A stretch of DNA of 64,000 bases from Fibrobacteria bacterium (GTDB lineage Bacteria; Fibrobacterota; Fibrobacteria; UBA11236): the NCBI GenBank assembly GCA_025360005.1, contig JANYDA010000003.1, forward strand, positions 1 to 64,000, read 5' to 3'. A program made the position numbers and the translations under genes. The notes below the pieces were generated by a model, which made no database searches, was not told the DNA's origin, and worked only from the letters and a program-made list of their open reading frames with translations. Positions 27,352-32,019 of the stretch are shown here, piece after piece; position 1 is the stretch's first letter, and each line of letters opens with the position of its first letter.

Positions 27352-28593
27352 TCAGCGCGCCGCCGACTTGCGCGCGGCGGATGAGTCGCCCGCTCCGGGG
27401 GCTCGCGCCGCGCCCGCGGCTTCGGCGGGAACGGATTTGGAGGCATGCTTCTCGATCTCGGCGAAGAACTCCTCGAACAAGTAATGCGAGTCCTTGGGGC
27501 CGGGGGAGGCTTCCGGATGGTATTGCACCGAATAGGCCGGCAAAGTGCGATGACGCAGGCCGGCCACCGTCTGATCGTTCAGGTTGACATGGGTGACTTC
27601 CACGTCCTTGCTATCCAGGCTTTTGGGATCCACGGCGAAGCCGTGGTTCTGGGAAGTGATTTCCACCTTGCCGGTGCGCAAATCCTTGACGGGATGGTTG
27701 GCGCCGCGATGGCCGAACTTGAGCTTGAAAGTGGCGCCGCCCAGGGAGCGCGCCAGGAGCTGGTGTCCCAGGCAAATGCCGAAGATGGGCTTAACGCCCA
27801 GCAAGCCCTTGATAGTATCCACGGCATAGTCCAGGAGCGCCGGATCGCCGGGCCCGTTGGAAAGGAAGATGCCGTCAGGATTGATGGCCAGGATGTCTTC
27901 CGTCTTGGCGTCCGCGGGAAAGCGGACCACCTCCGCGCCTTGCGATTGCAGTTTGCGGAGAATGTTGTATTTGATCCCGTAATCCAACGCGGCGATCTTG
28001 TACCGCGCTCGCTTATCGTGGATGGGACGGAAGCTGAGTTTGTTTTCGCCCTCGTTCCAGCCTTCGCTTGTCCGGATGGTTACCTGCTTCACGAAATCGA
28101 TATACGTGAAGGACGGTACCGCTTTGGCCTTGGCCAGCACGGCTTGGACATTGTAGTCGCCCACCACGATGATGCCGTTCTTGGCGCCCGTCTCCCGCAG
28201 GATGCGCGTCAGGCGGCGCGTGTCCACGCCCTGGATGCCGGGGATGTTGTTCTTCTTCAGGTATTCGGAGAGCGACCAGGCGTGCTTGCCGCGGCCTTCA
28301 TCGGCGCGCCAATTGGATGGGTACTCGCAGCAATTTTTCACCACCAGGCCGGAGACCTGGATCTTTTTGGACTCGACATCCTCCGGATTGATGCCGTAGT
28401 TTCCGATTTCCGGATAGGTCAAGGTGACGATTTGCCCCGAGTAGGAAGGATCTGTTAGGATTTCCTGGTAGCCGGTCATGGAGGTATTGAAGCAAACCTC
28501 TCCGCCCAAACCCTCCCGGGCGGCCTCGTGCTCGGCTCCGAAGGATTCGCCTTCGAAATAGTTTCCGTCTTCCAGGGCAAGTATGGCTTTCAT
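27352..28593 (-). CDS. carA: Carbamoyl-phosphate synthase small subunit
   Basis: 413 residues. Glutamine amidotransferase subunit supplying ammonia for carbamoyl phosphate (pyrimidines, arginine). N-terminal LEDGNYFEGESFG, MTGYQEILTDPSYSGQIV; class I amidotransferase domain with IFGICLGHQLLA (nucleophile Cys), GHRGANHPVKD and YHPEASPGPKDS (His/Glu). The last ~30 residues are an Ala/Ser-rich extension. carB is not in the window, which is a little unusual. It follows the TatB-like::5-FCL fusion by 33 bp. Confidence 0.95.
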   Translation of the reverse strand: MKAILALEDGNYFEGESFGAEHEAAREGLGGEVCFNTSMTGYQEILTDPSYSGQIVTLTYPEIGNYGINPEDVESKKIQVSGLVVKNCCEYPSNWRADEGRGKHAWSLSEYLKKNNIPGIQGVDTRRLTRILRETGAKNGIIVVGDYNVQAVLAKAKAVPSFTYIDFVKQVTIRTSEGWNEGENKLSFRPIHDKRARYKIAALDYGIKYNILRKLQSQGAEVVRFPADAKTEDILAINPDGIFLSNGPGDPALLDYAVDTIKGLLGVKPIFGICLGHQLLARSLGGATFKLKFGHRGANHPVKDLRTGKVEITSQNHGFAVDPKSLDSKDVEVTHVNLNDQTVAGLRHRTLPAYSVQYHPEASPGPKDSHYLFEEFFAEIEKHASKSVPAEAAGAARAPGAGDSSAARKSAAR

Positions 28594-28626: not shown

Positions 28627-29424
28627 TCACGCATCCGCGCGCGGGGCGGAGAAGACCAGGATCCTCTTCTCCGAGATGACGGCGTCCATAAGCTGATCAT
28701 GCGGGTCCAAAGTTAGGTTTTTCTGCGTGATTTGCACGTCGAAACCCAACCCGGCCCGTATCGTCCGCTTGCCGGCCAGATAGCGATCATAAAAGCCCAA
28801 GCCTTTGCCCAATCTGCCGCCCCGGTGGTCGAAACACAGGCCGGGAACCAGCACCAGATCCGGCTCCGGAGCCCCGTCCTGCCGGAGCTCCGGCCTGGGC
28901 TCCAAGATTCCGAAGGCGCCCTCCGCCAAATCCTTTTCCGGATTGGAAACCCGGGCCATGCCCAGCGTCGGCTTGTCATCGCTTTTAAGGACGTAGGGAA
29001 CCAACAGGGTTTTTCCATCGCTCAGGATCCGCTGCAGCAGGGGCTCGGTGTCCAGCTCGTCCACGGTCCCGGAAAAGCAGGCGATCACTTTGCTGTTTTT
29101 ATAACTGGGCCATTCCCCCAACCGCGCTACGATGGCCTCGGCCGCTTCGGCGCGCTCCCCGGCCGGCACGGCCTGGATCTGCCCCTTGGCCCAGGTACGC
29201 ATCCCTCCCTTGTCGTGCTGCACCTTGGCGCGTTTGTCGTTGGCCTCCGCTTCCAAGGTGATGGATTCCAATTGCGATTTCACGTCCGACTGGATTTGGG
29301 AAACCTTGCGTTTCAGCTTCCCGAATTCGCGCATCACCTTGCCGAGTTCCTTGGGCTTGACAAGGATTACCACAAGAGCCACGACTACGCCGAATTCTCC
29401 TACGCCCAGGGAGTCGAAGATCAT
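28627..29424 (-). CDS. TatB-like domain fused to 5-formyltetrahydrofolate cyclo-ligase
   Basis: 265 residues in one uninterrupted frame. Residues 1-60 look like a Tat translocase TatB/TatA subunit: a short membrane helix with an acidic residue at position 10 (GVGEFGVVVALVVILV), Pro24, then a charged amphipathic helix and coiled coil (ELGKVMREFGKLKRKVSQI). The usual hinge Gly is absent. From about residue 75 a complete 5-FCL (MTHFS) follows: VDELDTEPLL, LLVPYV, EPDLVLVPGLCFDH and the nucleotide-binding GGRLGKGLGFYDRYL. 5-FCL converts 5-formyl-THF to 5,10-methenyl-THF with ATP. Met75 is preceded by a purine-rich AGGGAGG, so a separate 5-FCL could also be made by internal initiation, though spacing is tight. 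It lies in the order tatA-tatC-this gene-carA, exactly where tatB is otherwise missing. Confidence 0.85.
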   Translation of the reverse strand: MIFDSLGVGEFGVVVALVVILVKPKELGKVMREFGKLKRKVSQIQSDVKSQLESITLEAEANDKRAKVQHDKGGMRTWAKGQIQAVPAGERAEAAEAIVARLGEWPSYKNSKVIACFSGTVDELDTEPLLQRILSDGKTLLVPYVLKSDDKPTLGMARVSNPEKDLAEGAFGILEPRPELRQDGAPEPDLVLVPGLCFDHRGGRLGKGLGFYDRYLAGKRTIRAGLGFDVQITQKNLTLDPHDQLMDAVISEKRILVFSAPRADA

Positions 29425-29662: not shown

Positions 29663-30397
29663 TCATACTGCGCTCTCTTGCGCAGACTTTTTCTGCGCGA
29701 TCTTGCATATCCCGATCGAAATCACGTACAGCACGCACAACGGCACGGCCATCATCACCTGCGAAACCGGATCCGGCCCCGGTGTGAGAATGGCCGCCAC
29801 GGTGAAGATGACGATAACGGCATACCGGAAAAAGCTCCACATGCCTCCGGCGGTGATCAGGCCCATGCTGGCCAGTACATAGGCGACCACGGGCAATTCG
29901 AATATCACGCCGAAGGCGAGCATGAATTGGCTGATGAAAGAGGCGAAATCGCCTTGCCGCCAATTCTGGGTGATGGCGCCTTTGGTGTAGGTGGCCAGAA
30001 AGGCCAGCCCCGCCGGCAACACCGCGAAATAGGCGAACGAGGCGCCCACGGCGAACATGATGATGGAAGAGAAGAACGCGATCCCGAAAACGCGCTTCTC
30101 CTTGGCGAAAAGGGCAGGCGCCAAAAAGCGCCAGACGTTCCACATAATCCAAGGGAAGGCCAGGATGACGCCGGAGATCAGCGACATCTTGAAGCTCGTC
30201 ATCAAGGTTTCCATGGGGGACGTGGCGATCAGATCCACCTTGAGATGCTGCTTGGTGAGGGGGTAGGCGATGACGAACCAGATTTTCTCCCAAAAGCCGT
30301 ACGCTATAGCGGAGGCGACCATAACGCCGATCATGATGCTGATGAGGCGGGAGCGGAGTTCTGAGATGTGGTCCCAGAAGGTGAATTCGGAGTCCAA
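29663..30397 (-). CDS. tatC: Twin-arginine translocase subunit TatC
   Basis: 244 residues with six membrane segments. Family motifs: N-terminal FWDHISELRSRL (signal-peptide binding face), FPWIMWNVWRFLAPALFAKEKR, FGVIFELPVV and the late ILTPGPDPVSQ. It is the receptor for Tat signal peptides. It lies 71 bp after tatA and 238 bp before the TatB-like fusion. Confidence 0.96.
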   Translation of the reverse strand: MDSEFTFWDHISELRSRLISIMIGVMVASAIAYGFWEKIWFVIAYPLTKQHLKVDLIATSPMETLMTSFKMSLISGVILAFPWIMWNVWRFLAPALFAKEKRVFGIAFFSSIIMFAVGASFAYFAVLPAGLAFLATYTKGAITQNWRQGDFASFISQFMLAFGVIFELPVVAYVLASMGLITAGGMWSFFRYAVIVIFTVAAILTPGPDPVSQVMMAVPLCVLYVISIGICKIAQKKSAQESAV

Positions 30398-30468: not shown

Positions 30469-30672
30469 TCAGGACTTGGGGGGTTCCTTGGCTTCGGGCG
30501 AGATAGACTTGGCTTTTTCATCAGCCTCATCCGTGCCGGCCATGGAGGTTTTGAAGTCGCGGATGCCTTTGCCCAGGCCTTTGGCGATTTCCGGGATCTT
30601 CTTTCCGCCGAAAAGCAGAATAACGATCAAGAGGATGATGATGAGTTCCATGGGTCCAAGACTGCTGAGCAT
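30469..30672 (-). CDS. tatA: Twin-arginine translocase subunit TatA
   Basis: 67 residues from the ATG at 30672, which has an AGGAGG site 5 bases away; the open frame upstream is not coding. N-terminal helix GPMELIIILLIVILLF, the FGGKKIPEIAKGLGKGIRDFK hinge and amphipathic helix, then a short charged tail. Pore-forming subunit of the Tat system. Confidence 0.96.
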   Translation of the reverse strand: MLSSLGPMELIIILLIVILLFGGKKIPEIAKGLGKGIRDFKTSMAGTDEADEKAKSISPEAKEPPKS

Positions 30673-30828: not shown

Positions 30829-32019
30829 TCATCCCGGGTTCTGAATGGGCTCCCGCGGTTGAAGCCAGGCATCCAGCAGCAAGCCCTCCTGCCACTTCAT
30901 CCACTTGGCGGCCTCCATCATCTTAGGGCGCGAGTTGGCGCCGGTAAGGGCTACCGCGGTCAAGGTGGATTTGGTCGCCAGCAGGGAGGGATCCATTTTC
31001 AGATCCTCGGCTATCTTATCGCGCACGGCTTTGAGATGGTTCAGCACGGTAGAGCTGGGGCTGGGGGCGACTCTGCGTGGCGGGCGCAAGGGTTGCGGCC
31101 AATCGCTTTCAGAAATCCCCAAAGCCTGCTGGAACACTTCCTGGTACCCGGCCTTGATCTTGGAATTGAGGCGCGAGGGCAGGGAGGGCACATGTTCGGG
31201 GGCGCCCTCTTGCGGAACTGCCATGGCGAAACGCAACAGGATGTCCGAAGGCAGAACCTTATAGCTGGGCAGATCCAAATCCTTGGCGGTTTGATCCCGG
31301 AATTTCCACAGCGCCTGCAAGACCGCCAACTGCCGCGGGTAAAAGCGCGAAGATCCATCGATGCGCCAGGTGTTTTCCAGATCCACTTCCTTGGATTTGG
31401 CCGTGGCCTTCACCAGTTCCCGGCAACACTCTTCATGCCATTCCAGGCGATTCTTTTCACGCAATTCCCCTGTCAGGGCATCGTACAGGCCGGGCAGGAA
31501 GAAGGTGTCCTGCGCGCCGTACTGCAGCATTAAAGGCGGCAGGGGACGTTGGGACCAGTCCGCTTTCTGCTGATCTTTTTTCAAGGTAGCGCCGAAATAG
31601 GCATTCACCAAGGCCGCCAGACCGAAGGCGGGTTTTCCGAGAAATTGGGCCGCGAGCATGGTGTCGTAGACGCGATGGGGGCGGAAGCCGGAGGACTGGT
31701 AGAGCATGCGCAGATCGTAGTCGGCGCCATGCAGCACAAGGATCTTGTCCGCCAGCTTCTTGAGGAAGCCGTCCAGGTTGATTTCGCTCAACGGGTCGAC
31801 CAGATAGCAGCGATCGCCGACCAGAATCTGGATCAGGCAGATCTTGGCGAAGTAATGATGCATGCTGTCCGCTTCCAAATCCAGGAAGACGGTTTCCACG
31901 CTATCCATGGCTTTCAGAAGCTTCCCCATAGCAGGGCCGCTATCGACATAATCGATGGGAAAATCGGGTTGGCTTGGCTGGATGGTATTCAAAAGGGAAG
32001 ATGTGTCATCGGATTGCAT
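30829..32019 (-). CDS. rnd: Ribonuclease D
   Basis: 396 residues. 3'-5' exonuclease of tRNA and other structured RNA maturation. DEDDy motifs: FLDLEADS (D, E), LHGADYDLRML (D), and YGAQDTFFL (Y, D). The following region contains the HRDC-like domain with WKFRDQTAKDLDLPSYKVL. Separate from the tat operon by 156 bp, same strand. Confidence 0.94.
   Translation of the reverse strand: MQSDDTSSLLNTIQPSQPDFPIDYVDSGPAMGKLLKAMDSVETVFLDLEADSMHHYFAKICLIQILVGDRCYLVDPLSEINLDGFLKKLADKILVLHGADYDLRMLYQSSGFRPHRVYDTMLAAQFLGKPAFGLAALVNAYFGATLKKDQQKADWSQRPLPPLMLQYGAQDTFFLPGLYDALTGELREKNRLEWHEECCRELVKATAKSKEVDLENTWRIDGSSRFYPRQLAVLQALWKFRDQTAKDLDLPSYKVLPSDILLRFAMAVPQEGAPEHVPSLPSRLNSKIKAGYQEVFQQALGISESDWPQPLRPPRRVAPSPSSTVLNHLKAVRDKIAEDLKMDPSLLATKSTLTAVALTGANSRPKMMEAAKWMKWQEGLLLDAWLQPREPIQNPG

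Follow-up and report, generated by a model that had tools for sequence, protein, structure and literature searches.

TatB is usually regarded as a subunit of the Tat core that serves export alone and has a dispensable tail. In the E. coli structure, the side-chain of TatB Glu8 forms a hydrogen bond with TatC Thr208, and TatC Gln215 binds the main chain of the same glutamate; in TatBC structures, the ordered part of TatB stops at the end of its amphipathic helix (residue 63 in E. coli), and the region beyond is mobile or disordered (PMC13323110). The hydrophilic tail of TatB is dispensable (PMC13186574) and, since it is also mobile, a folded domain at its place would be compatible with TatB function. 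With regard to 5-formyltetrahydrofolate cyclo-ligase (5-FCL), relatives of the enzyme that are not 5-FCLs are also known (COG0212 type; PMC3223725).

Here, we have analysed a protein in which 5-FCL appears to take the place of the TatB tail. It is encoded by the tatB::fcl fusion ORF, which is located at positions 28627..29424 (-) of the window, i.e. of the whole 64,000-nucleotide stretch of DNA under analysis. An earlier description of a TatB/5-FCL fusion was not found in our search of open-licence papers, and the fusion has apparently been undescribed until now. At a probability of about 0.78, we read it as a bifunctional TatB::5-FCL protein that would serve as the organism's TatB: the N-terminal helix would sit in TatC, with Glu10 within the polar cluster, the amphipathic helix would form part of the signal-peptide-binding cage, and this helix would run on into a cytosolic 5-FCL domain that replaces the mobile tail. 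The fusion would thus tether the enzyme to the translocase and, as three copies each of TatB and TatC are present in solved TatBC complexes, as many as three 5-FCL domains could sit on the cytoplasmic side of a core complex. The fusion would also act as the 5-FCL of the cell: being the only one found in the genome, it must presumably meet the housekeeping need for converting 5-formyl-THF to methenyl-THF as well.

The fused frame and its gene neighbourhood

The fusion ORF (265 aa) opens with an ATG, which is the first ATG/GTG/TTG past the upstream stop, and has no internal stops. Residues 1-58 (29251..29424 (-)) form the TatB-type domain, with a transmembrane helix at about residues 8-22 and an amphipathic helix from residue 24; Glu10 (codon 29395..29397 (-)) corresponds to E. 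coli TatB Glu8 by alignment. The linker that follows, residues 59-72 (29209..29250 (-)), is predicted to form a helix that runs on into the first one of the 5-FCL domain, residues 73-252 (28669..29208 (-)). The latter domain covers the whole PF01812 model (124.5 bits, cut-off 27) and positions 4-182 of 182 of the equivalog TIGR02727 (124.1 bits, cut-off 84.9), and Foldseek places it with the structures 2jcb and 3hy6, at target TM-scores of 0.83-0.90 (2jcb: E=4e-17, TM 0.88). The continuous frame of a TatB-like part and a complete 5-FCL, as had been noted in the initial annotation, is therefore borne out. In the AlphaFold2 model of the fusion (mean pLDDT 89.9), the helices span residues 8-22 and 24-84, the second one running into the enzyme; such a rigid helical arm is not predicted to be general among the fusions, given that the junction is broken and the linker of low confidence in the model of a distant fused homologue.

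The two partner genes adjoin the fusion, as previously noted, and lie upstream of it on the same strand: tatC, located at 29663..30397 (-), matches PF00902 (E=2e-62), and tatA, located at 30469..30672 (-), matches PF02416 (E=6e-18), this being the only PF02416 match in the genome. The upstream neighbour, located at 30829..32019 (-), is what we take to be an RNase D-like gene (rnd), found in the same order in relatives, while the downstream neighbour, located at 27352..28593 (-), is presumably carA-like (carbamoyl-phosphate synthase small subunit) and adjoins the fusion in L126 and L127 too. A common order among relatives is rnd-tatA-tatC-tatB::fcl-(carA)-rlmB, with trpS being divergent.

The source genome is a draft assembly of 4.98 Mb in 65 contigs and 98% complete. 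The search of the whole genome with the tatB model (TIGR01410) ranks the N-domain of the fusion first and tatA second, with the remainder at noise level; given this completeness, the earlier remark that the window holds no other tatB can be extended to the genome, where no better TatB has been found. The 5-FCL matches of the genome are likewise confined to the fusion, a single copy. The Tat pathway of this genome is probably in operation, as a search for Tat clients, conducted through family models only, has returned a likely candidate, an oxidoreductase whose Tat signal is of the MoCo-extended type. As an observation in its own right, a multihaem cytochrome gene at locus L191 (734-3072) precedes a gene that is molybdopterin oxidoreductase-like and encodes a Tat signal of the MoCo-extended type (SRRKFLQ), a gene pair that resembles ActA-ActB of alternative complex III.

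Distribution in Fibrobacterota and the possible purpose of the fusion

We have compared 131 Fibrobacterota genomes, of which 99 have tatC and 126 have 5-FCL, the latter nearly always as a single copy. The one-frame fusion is found in 41 of the 131 genomes, counted by hand from the hits that the N-domain alignment, used as a profile, has in long fcl frames; the fusion usually adjoins tatC, with the 5-FCL usually starting 250-300 bp past tatC. All 41 fusion genomes have tatC, and the N-domain has no match in any of the 32 tatC-less genomes (Fisher p=1e-6, uncorrected for relatedness). A protein search has shown the fusion to be kept in a single frame by four genus mates, four family mates, order and class mates and many distant relatives, which settles a point that the initial annotation had raised for checking. 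A scan of contigs with a subset of the fusions, whose search patterns suit one fusion sub-type, has returned 13 loci, all from Fibrobacterota, with record titles that name Chitinispirillaceae, Chitinivibrionales and Fibrobacter MAGs. Within the genus, pN/pS is 0.02-0.27 for the TatB part and 0.19-0.56 for the 5-FCL part, values that indicate purifying selection on both parts, stronger on the TatB part. The fusion is real and old, and present in many Fibrobacterota. In one genus mate (L006, genome G003), the 5-FCL domain is interrupted by an in-frame TAG and the TatB part is intact; the TAG is either a real lesion or an assembly error.

The group that we infer to be Fibrobacter (g4) keeps rnd-fcl-rlmB, without tatA-tatC at that locus, and those Fibrobacter that have Tat carry a different tatA-tatC, located elsewhere in the genome. 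The Fibrobacter 5-FCLs begin with a hydrophobic helix in 32 of the 32 sequences examined, and in many of them this helix precedes an FGS-like motif plus basic residues; five of the 32 sequences (L156, L159, L163, L165 and L166) come from genomes where neither TatC nor TatA/B was detected. In Fibrobacter, pN/pS is 0.34 for the anchor versus 0.15 for the enzyme, which suggests that the anchor is constrained, but less so than the enzyme. Judging from its position, its motif and the tree, the Fibrobacter helix would descend from TatB, the sequence similarity being not significant, and the N-terminal helix of the Tat-less Fibrobacter-like 5-FCLs is likely a TatB relic that has been kept as an anchor.

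Other arrangements of the two parts also occur. The 5-FCL is soluble in genera g6, g7 and g9. In the 5-FCL tree, which is poorly resolved at depth, the anchor-only forms and some free forms of the Fibrobacteraceae-like family f3 nest with fused forms (support 99), which is consistent with the reduced forms of this family having come from a fused ancestor; the free fcl of g20, g21 and family f7 may be either ancestral or the result of a later split, both being compatible with a tree of this depth. In genus g11 of family f3 (L017 232-2028 (+); L022; L171-L173), 5-FCL is fused to the C-terminus of the RNase D-like gene, in an ORF of about 585-610 aa, with tatA-tatC-mini-tatB located elsewhere. 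In family f5 (L125 3210-5580; L180), 5-FCL is the N-terminus of an ORF of approximately 790-815 residues.

The probable origin of the fusion is a locus at which tatB and fcl lay side by side. We hold the TatB identity with high confidence, and a special purpose of the fusion with confidence that is moderate at best. It may be a passenger, i.e. tatB may have lost its stop before the neighbouring fcl, leaving two independent parts that share coupled expression only; this explanation keeps both the TatB and the 5-FCL assignments of our preferred reading, differs from it in purpose only, and is a serious contender to which we would give somewhat less than even odds. With the TatB tail being dispensable in known systems (PMC13186574), such a fusion could be harmless; several lineages carry the two parts apart, linker length and predicted rigidity vary, and the RNase D::fcl fusion of g11, where fcl is joined to its other neighbour, suggests that the locus is fusion-prone. 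Our analysis has found nothing that connects the chemistry of 5-FCL with transport by Tat. Some lineages manage without the fusion, so neither activity depends on it. A passenger would not, however, be expected to be retained for so long across the phylum, nor does it sit well with the constrained hydrophobic helix (pN/pS below 1) that Fibrobacter 5-FCL keeps even where the Tat genes are missing. Since this helix is kept without tatA-tatC at the locus, membrane attachment of 5-FCL may later have become useful in itself; the findings accommodate coupled expression as well as a useful position at the membrane, with the likely Fibrobacter relic favouring the latter.

A further-reaching idea, which we put forward tentatively and regard as rather unlikely, is that the Tat core may be a membrane scaffold for one-carbon metabolism in this phylum, with 5-FCL benefiting from a place at the membrane, with TatB as the first anchor and with the Fibrobacter TatB domain having lost its Tat function and been stripped down to an enzyme anchor; if this were true, a subunit of the export machinery would have become a means of tethering a cytosolic enzyme. 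The need of the enzyme for the membrane is a question that is directly testable in Fibrobacter, and the natural series of fused, split, anchor-only and soluble forms allows the persistence of gene fusions to be addressed.

Identity of the two domains and the number of products

The N-domain of the window copy (residues 6-70, scanned alone) matches the TatB model TIGR01410 at E=2e-6 and 28.2 bits, which is under the curated cut-off of 56.5 bits, a naming and curation threshold of NCBI rather than a biological feature; in 14 control genomes, the same model has a match in 12 and its cut-off is passed in only three. The other NCBIfam matches of the N-domain are nearly all to Tat families. PF02416 has no match in the window copy, and the search of the N-domain alone against Pfam has returned weak, unrelated matches only; the TatB identity is thus drawn from NCBIfam, from the profile and from the gene context. 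With its TatB part missed by Pfam and placed under the curated tatB cut-off, this genome would look TatB-less to routine annotation.

The comparison of 35 aligned fusions has revealed Glu10 to be the sole invariant residue of the N-domain. The tatB model is matched by 30 of the 35 fusions (best 2e-12) and PF02416 by 18; as a profile against the PDB, the alignment matches the TatB structures 2mi2, 9dzz and 9e02 at 4e-10 to 7e-9, versus 1e-6 for the best TatA, whereas the single sequence compared with E. coli proteins scores slightly higher for TatA (53) than for TatB (43). The hydrophobic moment of residues 25-58 is above that of shuffles (p=0.002), the hinge of the window copy is VKP instead of the usual Gly-Pro, and the TatC of the window keeps the equivalents of E. 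coli TatC Thr208 and Gln215, i.e. of the residues that contact TatB Glu8. Where fcl lies elsewhere (g11, g16, g20 and g21), a free TatB of 53-57 aa is located directly behind tatC; a slot in which this domain occurs both on its own and joined to the enzyme is most readily taken for tatB. Unusually short free TatBs of this kind have been recorded at L094 4159-4317 (+) and also at L096, L098, L103, L118, L119 and L128.

The N-domain could alternatively be a mere membrane anchor of 5-FCL and not a working TatB, with Tat in this organism being a TatA-TatC system. We consider this improbable: the sub-threshold score of the window copy, the tatB-less TatA-TatC loci known in the phylum (as read from Fibrobacter tat loci) and the Fibrobacter 5-FCL helices, which have no Glu at the corresponding place, are in its favour, but it would leave unexplained the invariant Glu, the full amphipathic helix, the TatB-best profile match, the adjacency to tatC and dependence on TatC, the free mini-TatBs in the same slot, and a purifying selection within the genus that is stronger on the N-domain than on the enzyme. 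Taken together, the frame conserved across the phylum, the invariant Glu, the profile that prefers TatB to TatA, the TatC contacts, the mini-TatBs and the dependence on TatC make it most likely that the protein is the organism's TatB, with 5-FCL replacing its tail, and they uphold the initial annotation in this respect.

The same annotation had also suggested that the enzyme may be made separately from an internal start at Met75 (29200..29202 (-)), with an AGGAGG-like site. Met75 does lie at the domain boundary and is kept by the aligned genus members, and two products, i.e. a separate, soluble 5-FCL next to the full-length protein, could arise through this start or through proteolysis; the chance of this appears slim to us, as the actual motif, GGGAGGG, ends directly at the ATG, without the spacing that a ribosome-binding site needs, and is not conserved among relatives, and Met is absent from that site outside the genus. 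An in-frame ATG at the junction with a spaced Shine-Dalgarno is found in 0 of the 35 fusions, compared with a Shine-Dalgarno at the main start of 24 of the 35 (no such site can be recognised there in the window copy). Separate production of the enzyme from Met75 is thus unlikely, and this suggestion is not supported.

That the fused domain is a 5-FCL-like paralogue without 5-FCL activity, of the COG0212 type for which there are examples (PMC3223725), is very improbable, considering the nearly full-length match to the equivalog TIGR02727 above its cut-off, the R-x-G-x-G...D motif that is invariant in the 35 fusions, and the position of the fusion as the only 5-FCL candidate in the genome. Finally, an assembly error, a frameshift or a chance frame, as the 65-contig draft and the TAG in the 5-FCL part of G003 might raise, has a negligible probability: the junction is intact in genus mates, family mates and distant relatives, which excludes the local error for which the initial annotation had proposed a check, and the same one-frame fusion, under purifying selection, has been found in dozens of independent assemblies, among them named records.

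Comparison with known systems

If the proposed functions hold, the fusion contradicts the view that each protein of the Tat core has a single job, with a TatB tail that is often the sole 5-FCL of the cell, and it would provide a natural, folded and enzymatically readable TatB label for studies of core-complex stoichiometry. Known 5-FCLs of bacteria and human (MTHFS, YgfA/Fau; 2jcb, 1sou, human 3hy6) share with the fused domain the complete fold, the model match and the single copy per genome, but they are normally soluble, stand-alone proteins, whereas here the enzyme is joined to a membrane protein. The free mini-TatBs of g11, g16, g20 and g21 occupy the same slot after tatC and have the same helix and Glu, and they end where the linker of the fusion to the enzyme begins. 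With TatB of the three-component Tat systems (E. coli TatB, 2mi2, 9dzz), the fusion shares the N-terminal transmembrane helix with its Glu, the hinge, the amphipathic helix and the neighbouring tatC; it differs from them in the gene order, which is tatA-tatC-tatB instead of tatA-tatB-tatC, in the hinge of the window copy, which has no Gly, and in the folded enzyme of 180 residues that is located in place of the mobile tail of the E. coli-type TatB.
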